From Enterovibrio norvegicus DSM 15893 (GTDB taxonomy: Bacteria > Pseudomonadota > Gammaproteobacteria > Enterobacterales > Vibrionaceae), in contig NZ_FOWR01000012.1 of assembly GCF_900115495.1 (NCBI RefSeq), forward strand, positions 1 through 64,000: a stretch of DNA of 64,000 bases. Direction: 5' to 3'. The notes beneath the pieces are model-generated. The model did no database searches, was not told where the DNA came from, and saw only the letters and a list, made by a program, of their open reading frames with translations. Below, piece after piece: positions 19,562-23,993 of this stretch (positions are counted from its first letter, which is position 1; each line of letters begins with the position of its first letter). Made by a program: the position numbers and the translations under genes.

Positions 19562-20530
19562 CTAAAACTCATTGATAGGCAAAATCGGGGTGGGCCAAGG
19601 GTTATGAAGCCACTCGCGATAAAGGCCCGTCAGCTCGTCGCTGTGCTCGTCAATCAAATGAATAATGCGTGGGTCAATCAGGGTGCCCGCTTCTTGTGTC
19701 AACGCATTGATGCCTCGCTGAACCCGTTCTTCAATGTTGCCGTCACAACCTTCAATGGCCTTATCGAGTAGCTCGGCTGCAATGGCGACGCGACACTCTT
19801 CAGGAATTTTATCCCCTTCAATTTCAGGAAATCCGGAACCATCCCATCGGGTATTCTTGTAGGTCAGTAAACTCACCGACACAGAAGCAAACCCATTGGT
19901 TGCCTCTGAGAGTAACAACATACTGCGGCAATCTGGGGTGCTGTTTCCTCCCTCATCATCCCAAAGCTCACCCAATGCACAAAGCGGGTACGCCAAACTG
20001 ATGTCTTCCGCTTTGGCTTTCGTTAACCCGTACTTGATGGCCAGCCATTCACAACATTGCGCTATACGTGGAGCAGAGATTTCGACTTCGTTGTTATGCA
20101 ATGCCGCCACCGCCGCGATTTGGTTCATCACCAATTGATAGTTTTCACGCATGGCCGTTGCGCGCGCTTCGCCCAACAAATGCCCCACTCGGCTTTTCAC
20201 CAATTCAGGCGACACAGGCTTGATCAGAAAATCTACCGCGCCACTTTTCAGGCCTTCCACTTCGCTTTGGTATTCATCCAGCGCTGACACAATGACAATG
20301 GGAATATGACTCACTGTGCGCTCTTTTTTCAAAATACGGCACACCTCGTAACCGTTCATGCCAGGCATCATGATGTCGAGCAAAATGAGATCCGGTTTTT
20401 GCTGCATCGTGAGCTCAATAGCACGCTCCCCACTTTTGGCAAAAATGAGGGTGTATTGATCTTGCAGTATGGTGCGCATCACGTGCAGATTGCTCGGCTC
20501 GTCATCCACCACCAGCACTTTATATGCCAT
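19562..20530 (-). CDS. Response regulator with degenerate HD-GYP-like output domain
   Basis: 322 residues. Residues 1-120 are an intact receiver: acidic pair D9-D10, phospho-acceptor D52 in LLDIMMP, S82 and K104 in IKP. Residues ~130-300 resemble an HD-GYP domain only in outline: RWDGSGFP (228-235) followed by IPEECRVAIAAELLDKAIEG. The metal ligands are gone: the usual LHDIGK is LCALGE (183-188), and HHE before the RWDG block is replaced by YKN. It is therefore unlikely to hydrolyse cyclic di-GMP, but might still bind ligand or partner. Its start overlaps the end of the hybrid kinase by 11 bases, so the two are translationally coupled. Confidence 0.88.
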   Translation of the reverse strand: MAYKVLVVDDEPSNLHVMRTILQDQYTLIFAKSGERAIELTMQQKPDLILLDIMMPGMNGYEVCRILKKERTVSHIPIVIVSALDEYQSEVEGLKSGAVDFLIKPVSPELVKSRVGHLLGEARATAMRENYQLVMNQIAAVAALHNNEVEISAPRIAQCCEWLAIKYGLTKAKAEDISLAYPLCALGELWDDEGGNSTPDCRSMLLLSEATNGFASVSVSLLTYKNTRWDGSGFPEIEGDKIPEECRVAIAAELLDKAIEGCDGNIEERVQRGINALTQEAGTLIDPRIIHLIDEHSDELTGLYREWLHNPWPTPILPINEF

Positions 20531-23500
20531 AACCTTTTACTCCAGATTCTTGCGCTGCAGGTACTTGGTCTAACACAGTCAGGAAGATGTCGTAGGCATC
20601 GTCCAATTCGAAGTTCTCGATGGCAGCAACAAAGGTCGCCAACAAAGGTGGCTCTACGTAGCTTGCCATGGCGGGCACCAGTTCCTTGTAAAGCACATCG
20701 TCGAATTGGCCTTCCGCCAGCTTAGAAACAAACTCTTCGGTCTTCTTGTTAAACGTTGCAGGAGGCATGGTAATGACCTCCGCATCATCCATTTCTTCTC
20801 TGCGCACGCCGAGGTACGCCAACACATTGTCGAACGACGCAGACAAACAGTCGTTCAATGAATCCAACTGTTTACCGAGTTCGGATACCTCTCCCTCTTG
20901 CAACGCAGAGAGTAATTTTTTCAATTCATAAGCCAGCTTTTCAAAGCCGAGGCATTCGGCTGCATCAATGGCCGTATTGAAATAGCCATCAATGCTATCA
21001 GGCTGCTCCTGCACCATGCGCTTCACCACCACAGGCATGTCAAGGTAATTCAACCGGAACTCTCTCACGATGCTGAGAAGAATGTCTGACGTTGGCCATT
21101 GTTGGAATGCCCATGATTCGTTGAAATAGACTTTCTCTTCTTGCGTGATTGGCTGGGTTAATACAGTGACATTGCTGTTTTCATCAATGCCCATACAGCG
21201 TTTAAGCACATCAAACACGGCTTCACACTCAAACGGTTTATTGATGACGTCGTCGAAGCCACGCCCTTGCCATTCTTCAGTCGTTGTCGGGTCAACAGCC
21301 AATTTCATCGCTATCACCCGCACAGGCTCTTGGCGCGAATCTCCCACCCAGTCACGCAGTGTTCTTGGTGATGGGTACATCTCTTCCGACACATAGGCGT
21401 CCATCAGCACCACATCGACTTGCTGCGTTCGAATTAAATCTTCGGCAGCATCCATGTCCGTGAAGGTCAGTACTTTCACCCCTTGGCGCAGCAGCATATC
21501 GCGAAGCTCTTGCTGATTGCGCTGCACATCATCAATCACCAAGACTTCTAGTGGCGGTAAGGCATAATGCTGCACCGCATCTCTGTCGATAGATTTCGCG
21601 GCATGTTGTACAGCAATCAACGGCAAATCGGCATACACCACAGAGCTTTGAATCGATTCACCGTCAAACCATAAATTCCCTCGCATCAGTTCAATAAGCT
21701 GGGTGATCAAAGTGGCTGATAGCGTTTGTCCGGTGTGGACGTTTTTCTTTTCAAGGATGTCACTCGGTTGCACGGCGTAACTCGCAACCGCAAACCGCAC
21801 CATGTCATTCATGGGAAGAACATGCAGAGACACATTGCCGTTCTCAGTATTGGTTAATGCGCTGCGCATCATGTTCTGTAGTAACTGCTTAATACGGCGG
21901 GAATCCCCGACATAGCTATCAAGCAGCGCGTCGCTGTAATGCAGACTGACGTGGAGTTCGCGCGCTTGCACGGTTTCACGGGCGATGAATTCGATTTGTC
22001 GGCAAAGCTGAACCAAAGAAAACTCCCCAATGTCGAGGGGTAAAGACTGGCTTTCGAGCTTTGAAGTATCAAGAATGTCATTGATGAGTTTCATCAGGCT
22101 GTTACCTGACTCTTTAATCACTTCAAGGTGATGCCGGTGAATGGGGTCTTTTTCCGCATCAATAAGAATGTCTGCTAACCCCAAAATGGAGTTCATGGGC
22201 GATCGGAATTCGTAACTCATGTTCGCCAGGAACGAGGCTTTCGATTGCGAAGCTTTCTCCGCCAATCGCACTTTCTCTTCAACGTCCTCTTCTGCTTGGC
22301 GCTTGTCGGTGATATCAACAATGACGCCATCAATCCAAGTACTGCCATCCTCCGCACGGTAGCTCAGACCAATTTCCCAAAACCATTTTTCCTCATCGCT
22401 ACGGGTCGAAAACCGGTATTCACAGTCGTATTTGCCGTTACGGCGAGACACGTTTTCGCGCACTTTACGGTAATTGGCCGCATCGGTGGGGTGAATACGA
22501 TCTACAAAATGCGATACCCCATTCTCCCCTGTCAGTACAGATGCGCTATATCCGGTGATCGATTTCGCCGCATCACTGATGTACACCATGTGCCGAGTGC
22601 CTCCCGTCATTTCACGGAATGCCATGCAGGGTAAATTGGCGATCAAAGATCGATACTGTTTAGCATTTTCTCGCAGCGCCCACGCCAAATGACGTTGCTC
22701 GGAGATATCAGAAATCACTGCCACAAAACTGTTTTCTGCAGCGCCTTGATGAAAGCCAATGGCCAGTCGAATCGGGAACGATGTGCCGTCTTTTCGCTTC
22801 GCCATGACCTCACGGGTCGAACCCACCACGTCTGATGAACGGCGCTCGATAAAGTTATGGATATACATATCGTGGCGGTGTTGATGCTCGTCCGTCACCA
22901 AAATACGCACGTTCTTGCCCATGGCTTCAGACGCTAGCCAACCGAAAATACGCTCAGCCGATGAGTTAAAAAAGGTGATGTGGCCTTTGCTATCAATCGC
23001 GACGATGGCGTCGGTAATGGTGTTAATCACACGATCCAATTCTTCGTCTTTAACAGAGAGGTGTTTAACGCGGGCTTTTAGCATAAACAATGCATTGGCA
23101 ATCTGGCTAACAATCGCAATGAACACAAAGCCGAAGATAAACATCATCAAGGCATCACGACGGTCAAAGGGGGCGCTCTCCACCCGAACCGGTTGCCCTG
23201 ATAACGTCAGTGTGTCGCGCATGATCAAAGCGACCGTGAGAGAAGCCACCGTGATGGTCGCACCGCTGAGGAGCGCGCTGCTCATGTCTCGGTTCCACTT
23301 TGCTTGCTTAGGGCGACCAAAGCGCTGCCACAGCGCCGTGCCCACCAGCAATGAGCAAATTCCCAATGCCATCGTAAACATCGCCATATCAAACTGAGCA
23401 ATCGATACGCCGTTAATGGCCGCAAAGCCAAAGGTATGTTGAATCATCACCGCAAGAGAAATCAGCCCGGTGGCCATGAGTATCTTGATGGGAGGGTTGG

Positions 23501-23858
23501 ATTTGTACGCAATCAATCGAAACGCGTACAAGCAAAGCAAAAACGTCAGTACTGGGGGAAACAGCAATAAGGCAGGCACAAAACCAAGATCTTGATAGAC
23601 CGACACGGAGAGGACATTGACCACCTGCATGAGCCACAGCGAAAATGCCAGCGTGAGAGCATTCACGGGCAATGGCGTAAACTGCCAGACAGGCTGTCGC
23701 CTCGCTTGCAGTGGGCGATATAAGAAAGCCAGAGCGGCTACAACGAATGATGCACCACCTGCGAGCAGCAACATCCATGGATCGGTATACCCTTCCAGCA
23801 GAGGCTGGTCTGTCACTGGCGGCAGAAAAAAGAGAGTCAGTGATTCGATTATCGACAT
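20520..23858 (-). CDS. Hybrid sensor histidine kinase-like protein lacking its acceptor histidine
   Basis: 1112 residues from the ATG at 23858 (a GTG at 23900 would add 14). In order: about seven membrane segments (25-265), resembling an MHYT-type sensor but without clear M-H-Y-T motifs; two PAS domains (about 275-400 and 405-530); a HisKA/ATPase region; a receiver with D820 in VVLMDAYV; and a helical HPt-like tail. The H-box reads NMSYEFRSPMN, with Tyr549 (codon 22212-22214) where His is expected. The ATPase part lacks a recognisable DxGxG and GxGLGL. In the tail, Asn961 stands where an HPt histidine would align. The receiver residues look intact. Probably a non-catalytic scaffold or signal sensor for the overlapping response regulator. 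Confidence 0.87.
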   Translation of the reverse strand: MSIIESLTLFFLPPVTDQPLLEGYTDPWMLLLAGGASFVVAALAFLYRPLQARRQPVWQFTPLPVNALTLAFSLWLMQVVNVLSVSVYQDLGFVPALLLFPPVLTFLLCLYAFRLIAYKSNPPIKILMATGLISLAVMIQHTFGFAAINGVSIAQFDMAMFTMALGICSLLVGTALWQRFGRPKQAKWNRDMSSALLSGATITVASLTVALIMRDTLTLSGQPVRVESAPFDRRDALMMFIFGFVFIAIVSQIANALFMLKARVKHLSVKDEELDRVINTITDAIVAIDSKGHITFFNSSAERIFGWLASEAMGKNVRILVTDEHQHRHDMYIHNFIERRSSDVVGSTREVMAKRKDGTSFPIRLAIGFHQGAAENSFVAVISDISEQRHLAWALRENAKQYRSLIANLPCMAFREMTGGTRHMVYISDAAKSITGYSASVLTGENGVSHFVDRIHPTDAANYRKVRENVSRRNGKYDCEYRFSTRSDEEKWFWEIGLSYRAEDGSTWIDGVIVDITDKRQAEEDVEEKVRLAEKASQSKASFLANMSYEFRSPMNSILGLADILIDAEKDPIHRHHLEVIKESGNSLMKLINDILDTSKLESQSLPLDIGEFSLVQLCRQIEFIARETVQARELHVSLHYSDALLDSYVGDSRRIKQLLQNMMRSALTNTENGNVSLHVLPMNDMVRFAVASYAVQPSDILEKKNVHTGQTLSATLITQLIELMRGNLWFDGESIQSSVVYADLPLIAVQHAAKSIDRDAVQHYALPPLEVLVIDDVQRNQQELRDMLLRQGVKVLTFTDMDAAEDLIRTQQVDVVLMDAYVSEEMYPSPRTLRDWVGDSRQEPVRVIAMKLAVDPTTTEEWQGRGFDDVINKPFECEAVFDVLKRCMGIDENSNVTVLTQPITQEEKVYFNESWAFQQWPTSDILLSIVREFRLNYLDMPVVVKRMVQEQPDSIDGYFNTAIDAAECLGFEKLAYELKKLLSALQEGEVSELGKQLDSLNDCLSASFDNVLAYLGVRREEMDDAEVITMPPATFNKKTEEFVSKLAEGQFDDVLYKELVPAMASYVEPPLLATFVAAIENFELDDAYDIFLTVLDQVPAAQESGVKGYGI

Positions 23859-23993
23859 GCGTTTTACCGAGTTTGCGCCTAATTCATTGAACAAGCACAC
23901 AAATGATCATTACTGAGAAAAACAAACAACTTTCGAGACATCTTTTAAGCTTAGTCAAGATTTGGCAGGTAACCCATTAAAACGAAGGTAAAA

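Follow-up and report, generated by a model that had tools for sequence, protein, structure and literature searches.

A pseudo-histidine kinase and its degenerate REC-HD-GYP partner in Enterovibrio and Grimontia: joint loss of catalytic residues and subsequent purifying selection

The stretch of 64,000 nucleotides analyzed here (the window; Enterovibrio norvegicus DSM 15893, contig NZ_FOWR01000012.1) carries the gene of a hybrid pseudo-histidine kinase, which overlaps that of a REC-HD-GYP response regulator, and both proteins have been stripped of most of their catalytic residues. By analogy with characterized pseudokinases, we estimate a probability of roughly 0.5 that this two-gene unit, which stems from an ordinary phosphorelay, now acts by receiver docking without catalysis. 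The sequences show that the pair was already stripped of most catalytic residues in the common ancestor of Enterovibrio/Grimontia (hereafter, the genus) and a related genus (g6), and that it has since been kept under strong selection. The features of the two genes are as follows:

20520..23900, minus strand: hybrid pseudo-histidine kinase gene, 1,126 residues from the GTG given in the open reading frame list
23076..23858, minus strand: membrane region derived from a seven-transmembrane MHYT sensor, with all three MHxxxM motifs broken
22695..23045, minus strand: PAS domain 1 of the kinase (Pfam PAS, 70 bits)
22311..22658, minus strand: PAS domain 2 of the kinase (Pfam PAS_3, 52 bits)
22050..22268, minus strand: DHp (HisKA) dimerization/docking helices (Pfam HisKA, 55.6 bits; cut-off 26.9)
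22212..22214, minus strand: TAC codon of Y549 (ATG numbering), the Tyr that stands in place of the phospho-accepting His
21615..21920, minus strand: shortened, degenerate CA (ATPase) remnant without the second N-box Asn, G1, F and G2
21201..21554, minus strand: C-terminal receiver of the kinase, partly eroded, Asp and Lys retained (Response_reg, 36 bits)
20826..21158, minus strand: HPt-derived helical region without the His (hhalign, model helices and site table)
20523..20798, minus strand: C-terminal helical tail of the kinase (alignment; hhalign 76% to the intact tail)
19562..20530, minus strand: partner response regulator gene, 322 residues, overlapping the kinase gene by 11 bases
20165..20530, minus strand: partner receiver, fully canonical, with D9, D10, D52, S82 and K104 (Response_reg, 97 bits)
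19601..20164, minus strand: degenerate HD-GYP domain with seven of eight metal ligands lost (HD_5, 25.0 bits; cut-off 27.2)
19565..19600, minus strand: conserved C-terminal tail of the regulator, PWPTPILPINEF, 12 residues

The kinase probably starts at the ATG at 23858, 14 codons into the GTG-started frame, since cross-species conservation begins there. Residues are numbered from this ATG, so that Y549 and D820 correspond to Y563 and D834 when counted from the GTG.

The H-box of the window kinase reads ANMSYEFRSPMN, with a Tyr (codon TAC) at the position of the phospho-accepting His, and Tyr549 in the initial annotation is thus correct in ATG numbering. Its statement that G1 (DxGxG) and G2 (GTGLGx) are missing is borne out by the alignment with intact homologues, in which the G1 site reads VASYAVQ. 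Concerning the N-box, for which no proper Asn spacing had been seen, the second Asn is indeed replaced by Ser and the Lys by Thr, but the first Asn stands at the right place (NMMRSAL). The kinase's own receiver retains its acidic pair, D820 and Lys, as described, and has a Lys at the Thr/Ser switch position besides. Domain scores follow the same pattern when compared with three intact homologues: HATPase_c reaches 16.3 bits (Pfam cut-off 26.4) versus 97–109 bits, and Response_reg 36 versus 81–86 bits, while MHYT has no Pfam match up to an E value of 1 (141–163 bits in the intact proteins) and Hpt no Pfam match (25–30 bits).

For eight intact kinases and seven pseudo copies, the latter being five of the 15 full-length genus copies and both g6 copies, we tabulated 32 positions across the sensor, kinase, receiver and HPt regions. 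All 32 sites are intact in all eight intact homologues. The pseudo copies all (7/7) keep the H-box Glu, Arg and Pro, the leading Asn of the N-box and, in the receiver, the first acidic Asp, the phospho-acceptor Asp and the Lys. Neither g6 copy has the second acidic Asp, and four of the seven copies lack the receiver Thr. A single G2 Gly survives in 5/7, and other matches are single and scattered. None of the seven has a complete MHxxxM motif (all motifs are present in the eight intact kinases), and a lone His at one MHYT motif survives in the window kinase, L019 and L027. The HPt His column, where the alignment is weak, holds N, A, K, G, L, K and E in the pseudo copies and His in 8/8 intact ones. 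As the second N-box Asn is present in both g6 copies and lost in Enterovibrio/Grimontia, erosion went on after the two had split. The hallmarks of an active histidine kinase are thus missing, with no H-box His and no intact set of N, G1, F and G2 boxes in the pseudo copies, and what is found (HisKA fold retained, His lost, gene under selection) is what defines a pseudo-histidine kinase.

The partner regulator has been stripped in its output domain only. Its receiver scores 97 bits (85 and 95 in two intact partners scanned), and the acidic pair, Asp, Thr/Ser and Lys are retained in all 15 genus and both g6 copies, with the phospho-acceptor Asp in 30/30 rows. The HD_5 match, in contrast, falls to 25.0 bits versus 131 and 140 in the two intact partners, and for the single g6 partner scanned, no HD match was obtained up to an E value of 0.1. 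The ligands are given in PmGH numbering, following PMC4159591. All eight are present in the 13 intact regulators tabulated, while H221, D222, H250, H276, H277 and D305 are lost in 17/17 degenerate regulators and H189 in 16/17 (the survivor being one g6 copy). The E185 column is Glu or Asp in 8/17, including the window (Glu), and the D305 column is Glu throughout Enterovibrio/Grimontia; according to PMC4159591, PmGH mutants of E185 and D305 retain some activity and those of the other six ligands do not. The degenerate regulators therefore lack the HD diad and the set of metal ligands that mark an HD-GYP phosphodiesterase. In 12 regulators of 322 residues, the tail PWPTPILPINEF has a mean identity of 96%; it is absent from the aligned intact partners, g6 and G002/G014, and missing in L081 and L082. 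From its conservation, a new binding motif is possible. The 11-base offset of the overlap recurs in 8 of 9 named loci; in the ninth (L005) the start was undetected, and its copy in G007 overlaps alike.

Searching with the N-terminus of the window kinase, we found hybrid kinases in a further two genera, g7 and g12. A REC-HD-GYP regulator gene adjoins in the same order in 8/8 kinase regions fetched, and these kinases have three MHYT motifs, NMSHE(I/L)RTP, the N-box, D(S/T)GIGI, GGTGLG and the HPt His. Using the intact N-terminus against 296 genomes of the family, we obtained 16 homologues with E values below 1e-90 (nine in g7 and seven in g12, including the eight first fetched), all with a His in the H-box. 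Of these, 15 passed a motif scan covering MHYT, N and G1. The sixteenth (G264, in g12), for which the scan missed G1 and one MHYT motif, was considered as a partly degenerate intermediate and rejected, as the full reading showed motif variants and intact proteins, the regulator included. In total, 16/16 kinases and 9/9 adjacent regulators checked are intact. In gene pair, domain order and position in the trees, the g7/g12 pairs resemble the window pair and are the nearest intact relatives found, but their catalytic, sensor and phosphotransfer motifs are intact in both proteins. By gene order, architecture and clade, the window pair thus belongs with the Vibrionaceae pairs of MHYT hybrid kinase and REC-HD-GYP regulator.

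The trees (33 rows for the regulator, 29 for the kinase core) agree on the order of events. In both, g12 splits off first and g7 next, after which a very long branch (2.66 changes per column for the kinase, 1.82 for the regulator) leads to Enterovibrio/Grimontia and g6 together (100/100); within the genus, branches are short. Support for joining g7 to the degenerate clade is 97/87 in the tree of the regulator, as against only 91/81 in that of the kinase; given the latter value and the meeting of long branches, it is more certain that the degenerate clade is a unit than which intact lineage lies nearest to it. Most losses are common to the genus and g6, and these would most simply fall on one ancestral branch in both proteins. 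Profile comparisons with hhalign also connect the worn regions to their intact counterparts, with probabilities of 97.7% for the window N-terminus against the intact MHYT region, 98.9% for the CA remnant and, weakly, 74% (E 2.7e-5) for the HPt region. In g6, descent of the HPt region is supported solely by its match to that of Enterovibrio (98.7%), as the profile comparison with the intact HPt gave 6.7%.

A scan of contigs identified 10 loci whose named records are from Enterovibrio/Grimontia species, all of which recur, and are counted once, in a search of 61 related genomes. There, a kinase orthologue was found in 16 of the 18 genus genomes and in two g6 genomes (33–36% identity). The aligned set comprises the 15 full-length genus kinases and the two g6 copies, leaving aside the copy in G006 (L010), whose frame is broken in a draft that is 87% complete. 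All 15 have Tyr in the H-box (six TAC, nine TAT), as has the broken sixteenth copy, and both g6 copies have Thr, so that His occurs in 0 of the 17. With such agreement, a sequencing error behind the Tyr, already held to be unlikely in the initial annotation, is ruled out. At the DNA level, a Tyr-type H-box pattern matches 16 of the 296 genomes of the family; each of the 16 belongs to this genus and is matched at the kinase gene. The pattern is a stringent one (with His instead of Tyr, it picks up just five sites in the window genome, which has 43 HisKA matches), and looser Tyr variants elsewhere would therefore escape it. A functional paralogue within the same genome was rejected as well: the best other protein among the matches listed is 26% identical, over residues 286–902.

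Both genes are under purifying selection. The ratio of non-synonymous to synonymous substitution rates (dN/dS) is 0.034, 0.031, 0.045 and 0.152 in four unsaturated close pairs of the kinase, with two further, more distant pairs saturated, and 0.018, 0.027 and 0.014 in three pairs of the regulator. In two of these four kinase pairs the DHp domain is free of non-synonymous changes, and in each of the others it has one, while the HPt and C-terminal parts are looser (0.05–0.22). The two checks proposed in the initial annotation, scoring the boxes across orthologues and computing dN/dS, give good support to its view of a maintained pseudokinase: none of the 17 aligned orthologues has an H-box His, and the kinase values of 0.03–0.15 indicate strong selection. 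Its suggestion that the protein may pass signals without phosphorylating would fit as well. Its overall interpretation is partly supported, and the finding is wider, since the sensor, the HPt and the HD-GYP domain of the partner are also stripped and related genera hold the pair intact.

The distribution of the remaining conservation is uneven. Within the genus, DHp is the best-conserved kinase domain (mean identity 85%, with 47 of 73 columns invariant), followed by PAS2 (80%), the CA remnant (73%), PAS1 (70%), the kinase's own receiver (67%), the C-terminus (55%) and the membrane and HPt parts (44%); in the partner (12 copies), the receiver has 93% and the HD domain 77%. Across the loss, identity to intact g7 was compared with a control, the identity between intact g7 and g12 (in brackets below). 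For the kinase, it is 48% (59%) in DHp, 41% (48%) in PAS1, 29% (56%) in CA, 23% (49%) in the receiver, 17% (42%) in MHYT and 15% (22%) in HPt; for the partner, 51% (58%) in the receiver and 22% (59%) in HD. Helix 1 of DHp alone has 55% identity to g7, and the lid/G2 region 22%. PAS1, DHp and the partner receiver have thus stayed close to the intact pattern, and the active-site domains have not.

How such a pair could work is best considered with DivL of Caulobacter crescentus in mind. According to PMC4211667, DivL has Tyr550 in place of the His, shows no kinase or phosphatase activity, has a dispensable CA domain and binds DivK~P specifically, with its PAS domains tuning specificity. The window kinase is similar in its H-box Tyr, in the PAS domains before the histidine kinase fold, in the clade-wide presence of the Tyr and in an Arg three residues past it (R553 in DivL). 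It differs in the eroded REC and HPt after the core, the broken MHYT sensor and the co-degenerate HD-GYP partner gene. On this analogy, the window kinase would most likely dock a phosphorylated receiver and be neither a kinase nor a phosphatase itself. An ancestral MHYT-PAS-(PAS)-HisKA-HATPase-REC-HPt hybrid kinase with a REC-HD-GYP regulator gave rise to a pseudokinase whose PAS and DHp domains would form a dimeric docking platform for a receiver, foremost that of its own partner. The phosphorylation state of the partner receiver would be set by another kinase or a small phosphodonor. Docking could then couple this receiver to the state of the PAS and membrane regions, so that information would flow by conformation, with the pseudokinase reading or modulating receiver phosphorylation without catalysis. 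The degenerate HD-GYP domain, along with the conserved tail that follows it, would act by binding other proteins. The initial annotation had offered phosphorylation by another kinase as an option for the pseudokinase itself; the partner regulator appears the likelier target, because its receiver is fully canonical and the kinase's own is partly eroded. Docking of the partner receiver is favored since the window kinase has lost the ATP motifs that DivL retains. A bolder extension, which we put forward tentatively and consider somewhat doubtful, is that a whole phosphorelay may have become a catalysis-free allosteric pathway over one ancestral branch, in which sensor, kinase, HPt and output enzyme would have been stripped, the docking surface and the regulator's phosphorylation site retained, and the former kinase would be informed by its former target.

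Several observations weigh against receiver docking as the function. Intact kinases also conserve DHp well (66% across sublineages of g7 and 90% for a pair from g12), and its conservation alone is therefore weak evidence. The Tyr is not universal, and with Thr in the two g6 copies, Tyr chemistry cannot be demonstrated as ancestral. The kinase's own receiver keeps its Asp and Lys in all seven tabulated pseudo copies, although docking has no need of them. Finally, DivL retains N, G1, F and G2 (PMC4211667), which the window kinase lost, and the relationship is distant: the core matches DivL (4q20) with an E value of 1.2e-11, as one of 27 distant PDB matches. Orthology to DivL was consequently rejected, the core grouping with Vibrionaceae MHYT hybrid kinases in a tree without a DivL row.

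RetS of Pseudomonas aeruginosa acts by forming a heterodimer with GacS. A comparable antagonist, in which the DHp would pair with an active hybrid kinase that is thereby blocked or redirected and the partner regulator would be only one of several clients, is unlikely. By sequence and by structure, RetS (6dk7, 6dk8, 7n0e), the RetS-GacS co-complex and GacS belong to the core's best matches, DHp is the best-conserved kinase domain, and the 43 HisKA matches in the genome, the kinase itself included, offer a possible supply of partners. In a Foldseek search with the kinase model, ShkA, RetS and GacS ranked at the top and DivL at 31. This was an AlphaFold model from residue 535 to the end (mean predicted local distance difference test score 61), built, like that of the partner (65), from a nine-sequence alignment; given such shallow alignments and modest confidence, the models were used solely for the persistence of helical and alpha/beta elements. 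The rank of RetS may, however, reflect that hybrid kinases of the RetS/GacS type are among the nearest solved relatives. RetS also has a different sensor and gene setting, and is not known to have a co-degenerate HD-GYP partner; in the window, the tight gene pair with a co-degenerate regulator points to that regulator as the partner. RcsD (YojN) of enterobacteria, likewise a degenerate histidine kinase module within a phosphorelay, keeps an active HPt His, which the window kinase has lost.

It is rather improbable that the pseudokinase by itself serves the partner receiver as a phosphatase or sink, using the H-box Glu and the Ser/Thr four residues past the lost His. HisKA phosphatase activity usually needs a nucleotide-binding CA domain, and that of the window kinase is ruined. 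The H-box Glu and Arg are nevertheless kept in 17/17 aligned copies, with Ser or Thr at the +4 position, and PMC12632262 describes the His as contributing to HisKA-mediated phosphatase activity but not essential. Against this stands DivL, which has no phosphatase activity (PMC4211667).

Decay of the pair into pseudogenes is very improbable. Both genes are gone or broken in three of the 18 genus genomes. G004 (2.1 Mb) has regulator fragments with stops at L117:6480-7050 beside pabA and no kinase match in the surrounding 14 kb, and in G012 (2.6 Mb) orthologues of both genes are missing, so the pair is dispensable in these two. In the draft of Enterovibrio sp. JCM 19048 (L010; G006:C10:141663-145955), both genes are split over several frames, which may be draft errors or real decay. 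Yet the two gene-less genomes are small (3.6–5.7 Mb in the others), the broken draft is incomplete, and full-length kinase frames in 15 of the 18 genomes together with dN/dS far below 1 in both genes rule against decay. Least credible is a still-active kinase with a Tyr acceptor and an unusual ATP site, as the strict conservation of the Tyr in the genus would allow, given that G1, F and G2 are lost, the second N-box Asn is lost in the genus, g6 has Thr, and DivL, with its motifs intact, shows no autokinase activity (PMC4211667).

For the output side of the proposed docking unit, Bd1817 offers a parallel, being an inactive HD-GYP protein that binds a di-iron centre (PMC4159591); the partner shares the HD-GYP fold with it and with the HD-GYP domain of PA4781, but lacks seven of the eight metal ligands. 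With the partner model, Foldseek ranked PleD first and HD-GYP structures at 20, 21 and 35, its matches including 4r8z (PA4781) and 4mcw (an HD-GYP protein with a tri-nuclear metal centre).

Single pseudo-histidine kinases are already known. Their frequency is given as 0.9% of sampled HisKA domains without the His (722/76,471) in a 2025 paper (PMC12632262). In the present case, the two proteins of a single gene pair were deprived of most of their chemistry on what appears to be the same ancestral branch, with intact relatives in the same family. This provides a natural before/after comparison of a two-component system once phosphate transfer by the kinase is removed and of the residues then retained, and it bears on whether the direction of the signal reverses, as in DivL. 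Among the matches listed from the open-licence PMC literature on pseudokinases, HD-GYP proteins and Enterovibrio/Grimontia systems, no paper on the kinase-regulator pair was found.

Two minor observations concern individual loci. The kinase pair with the dN/dS of 0.152 is L024/L025 (G014 and G002, genomes of 3.6–3.7 Mb), with the highest values in the membrane region and PAS1, hinting that this kinase may be under relaxed or changed selection there. In addition, an intact REC-HD-GYP regulator lies beside a large hybrid kinase of different make-up at L106, L108, L111 and L112, three of them from other families of the order and L108 from g12, and the pairing of such a regulator with a large hybrid kinase looks recurrent.

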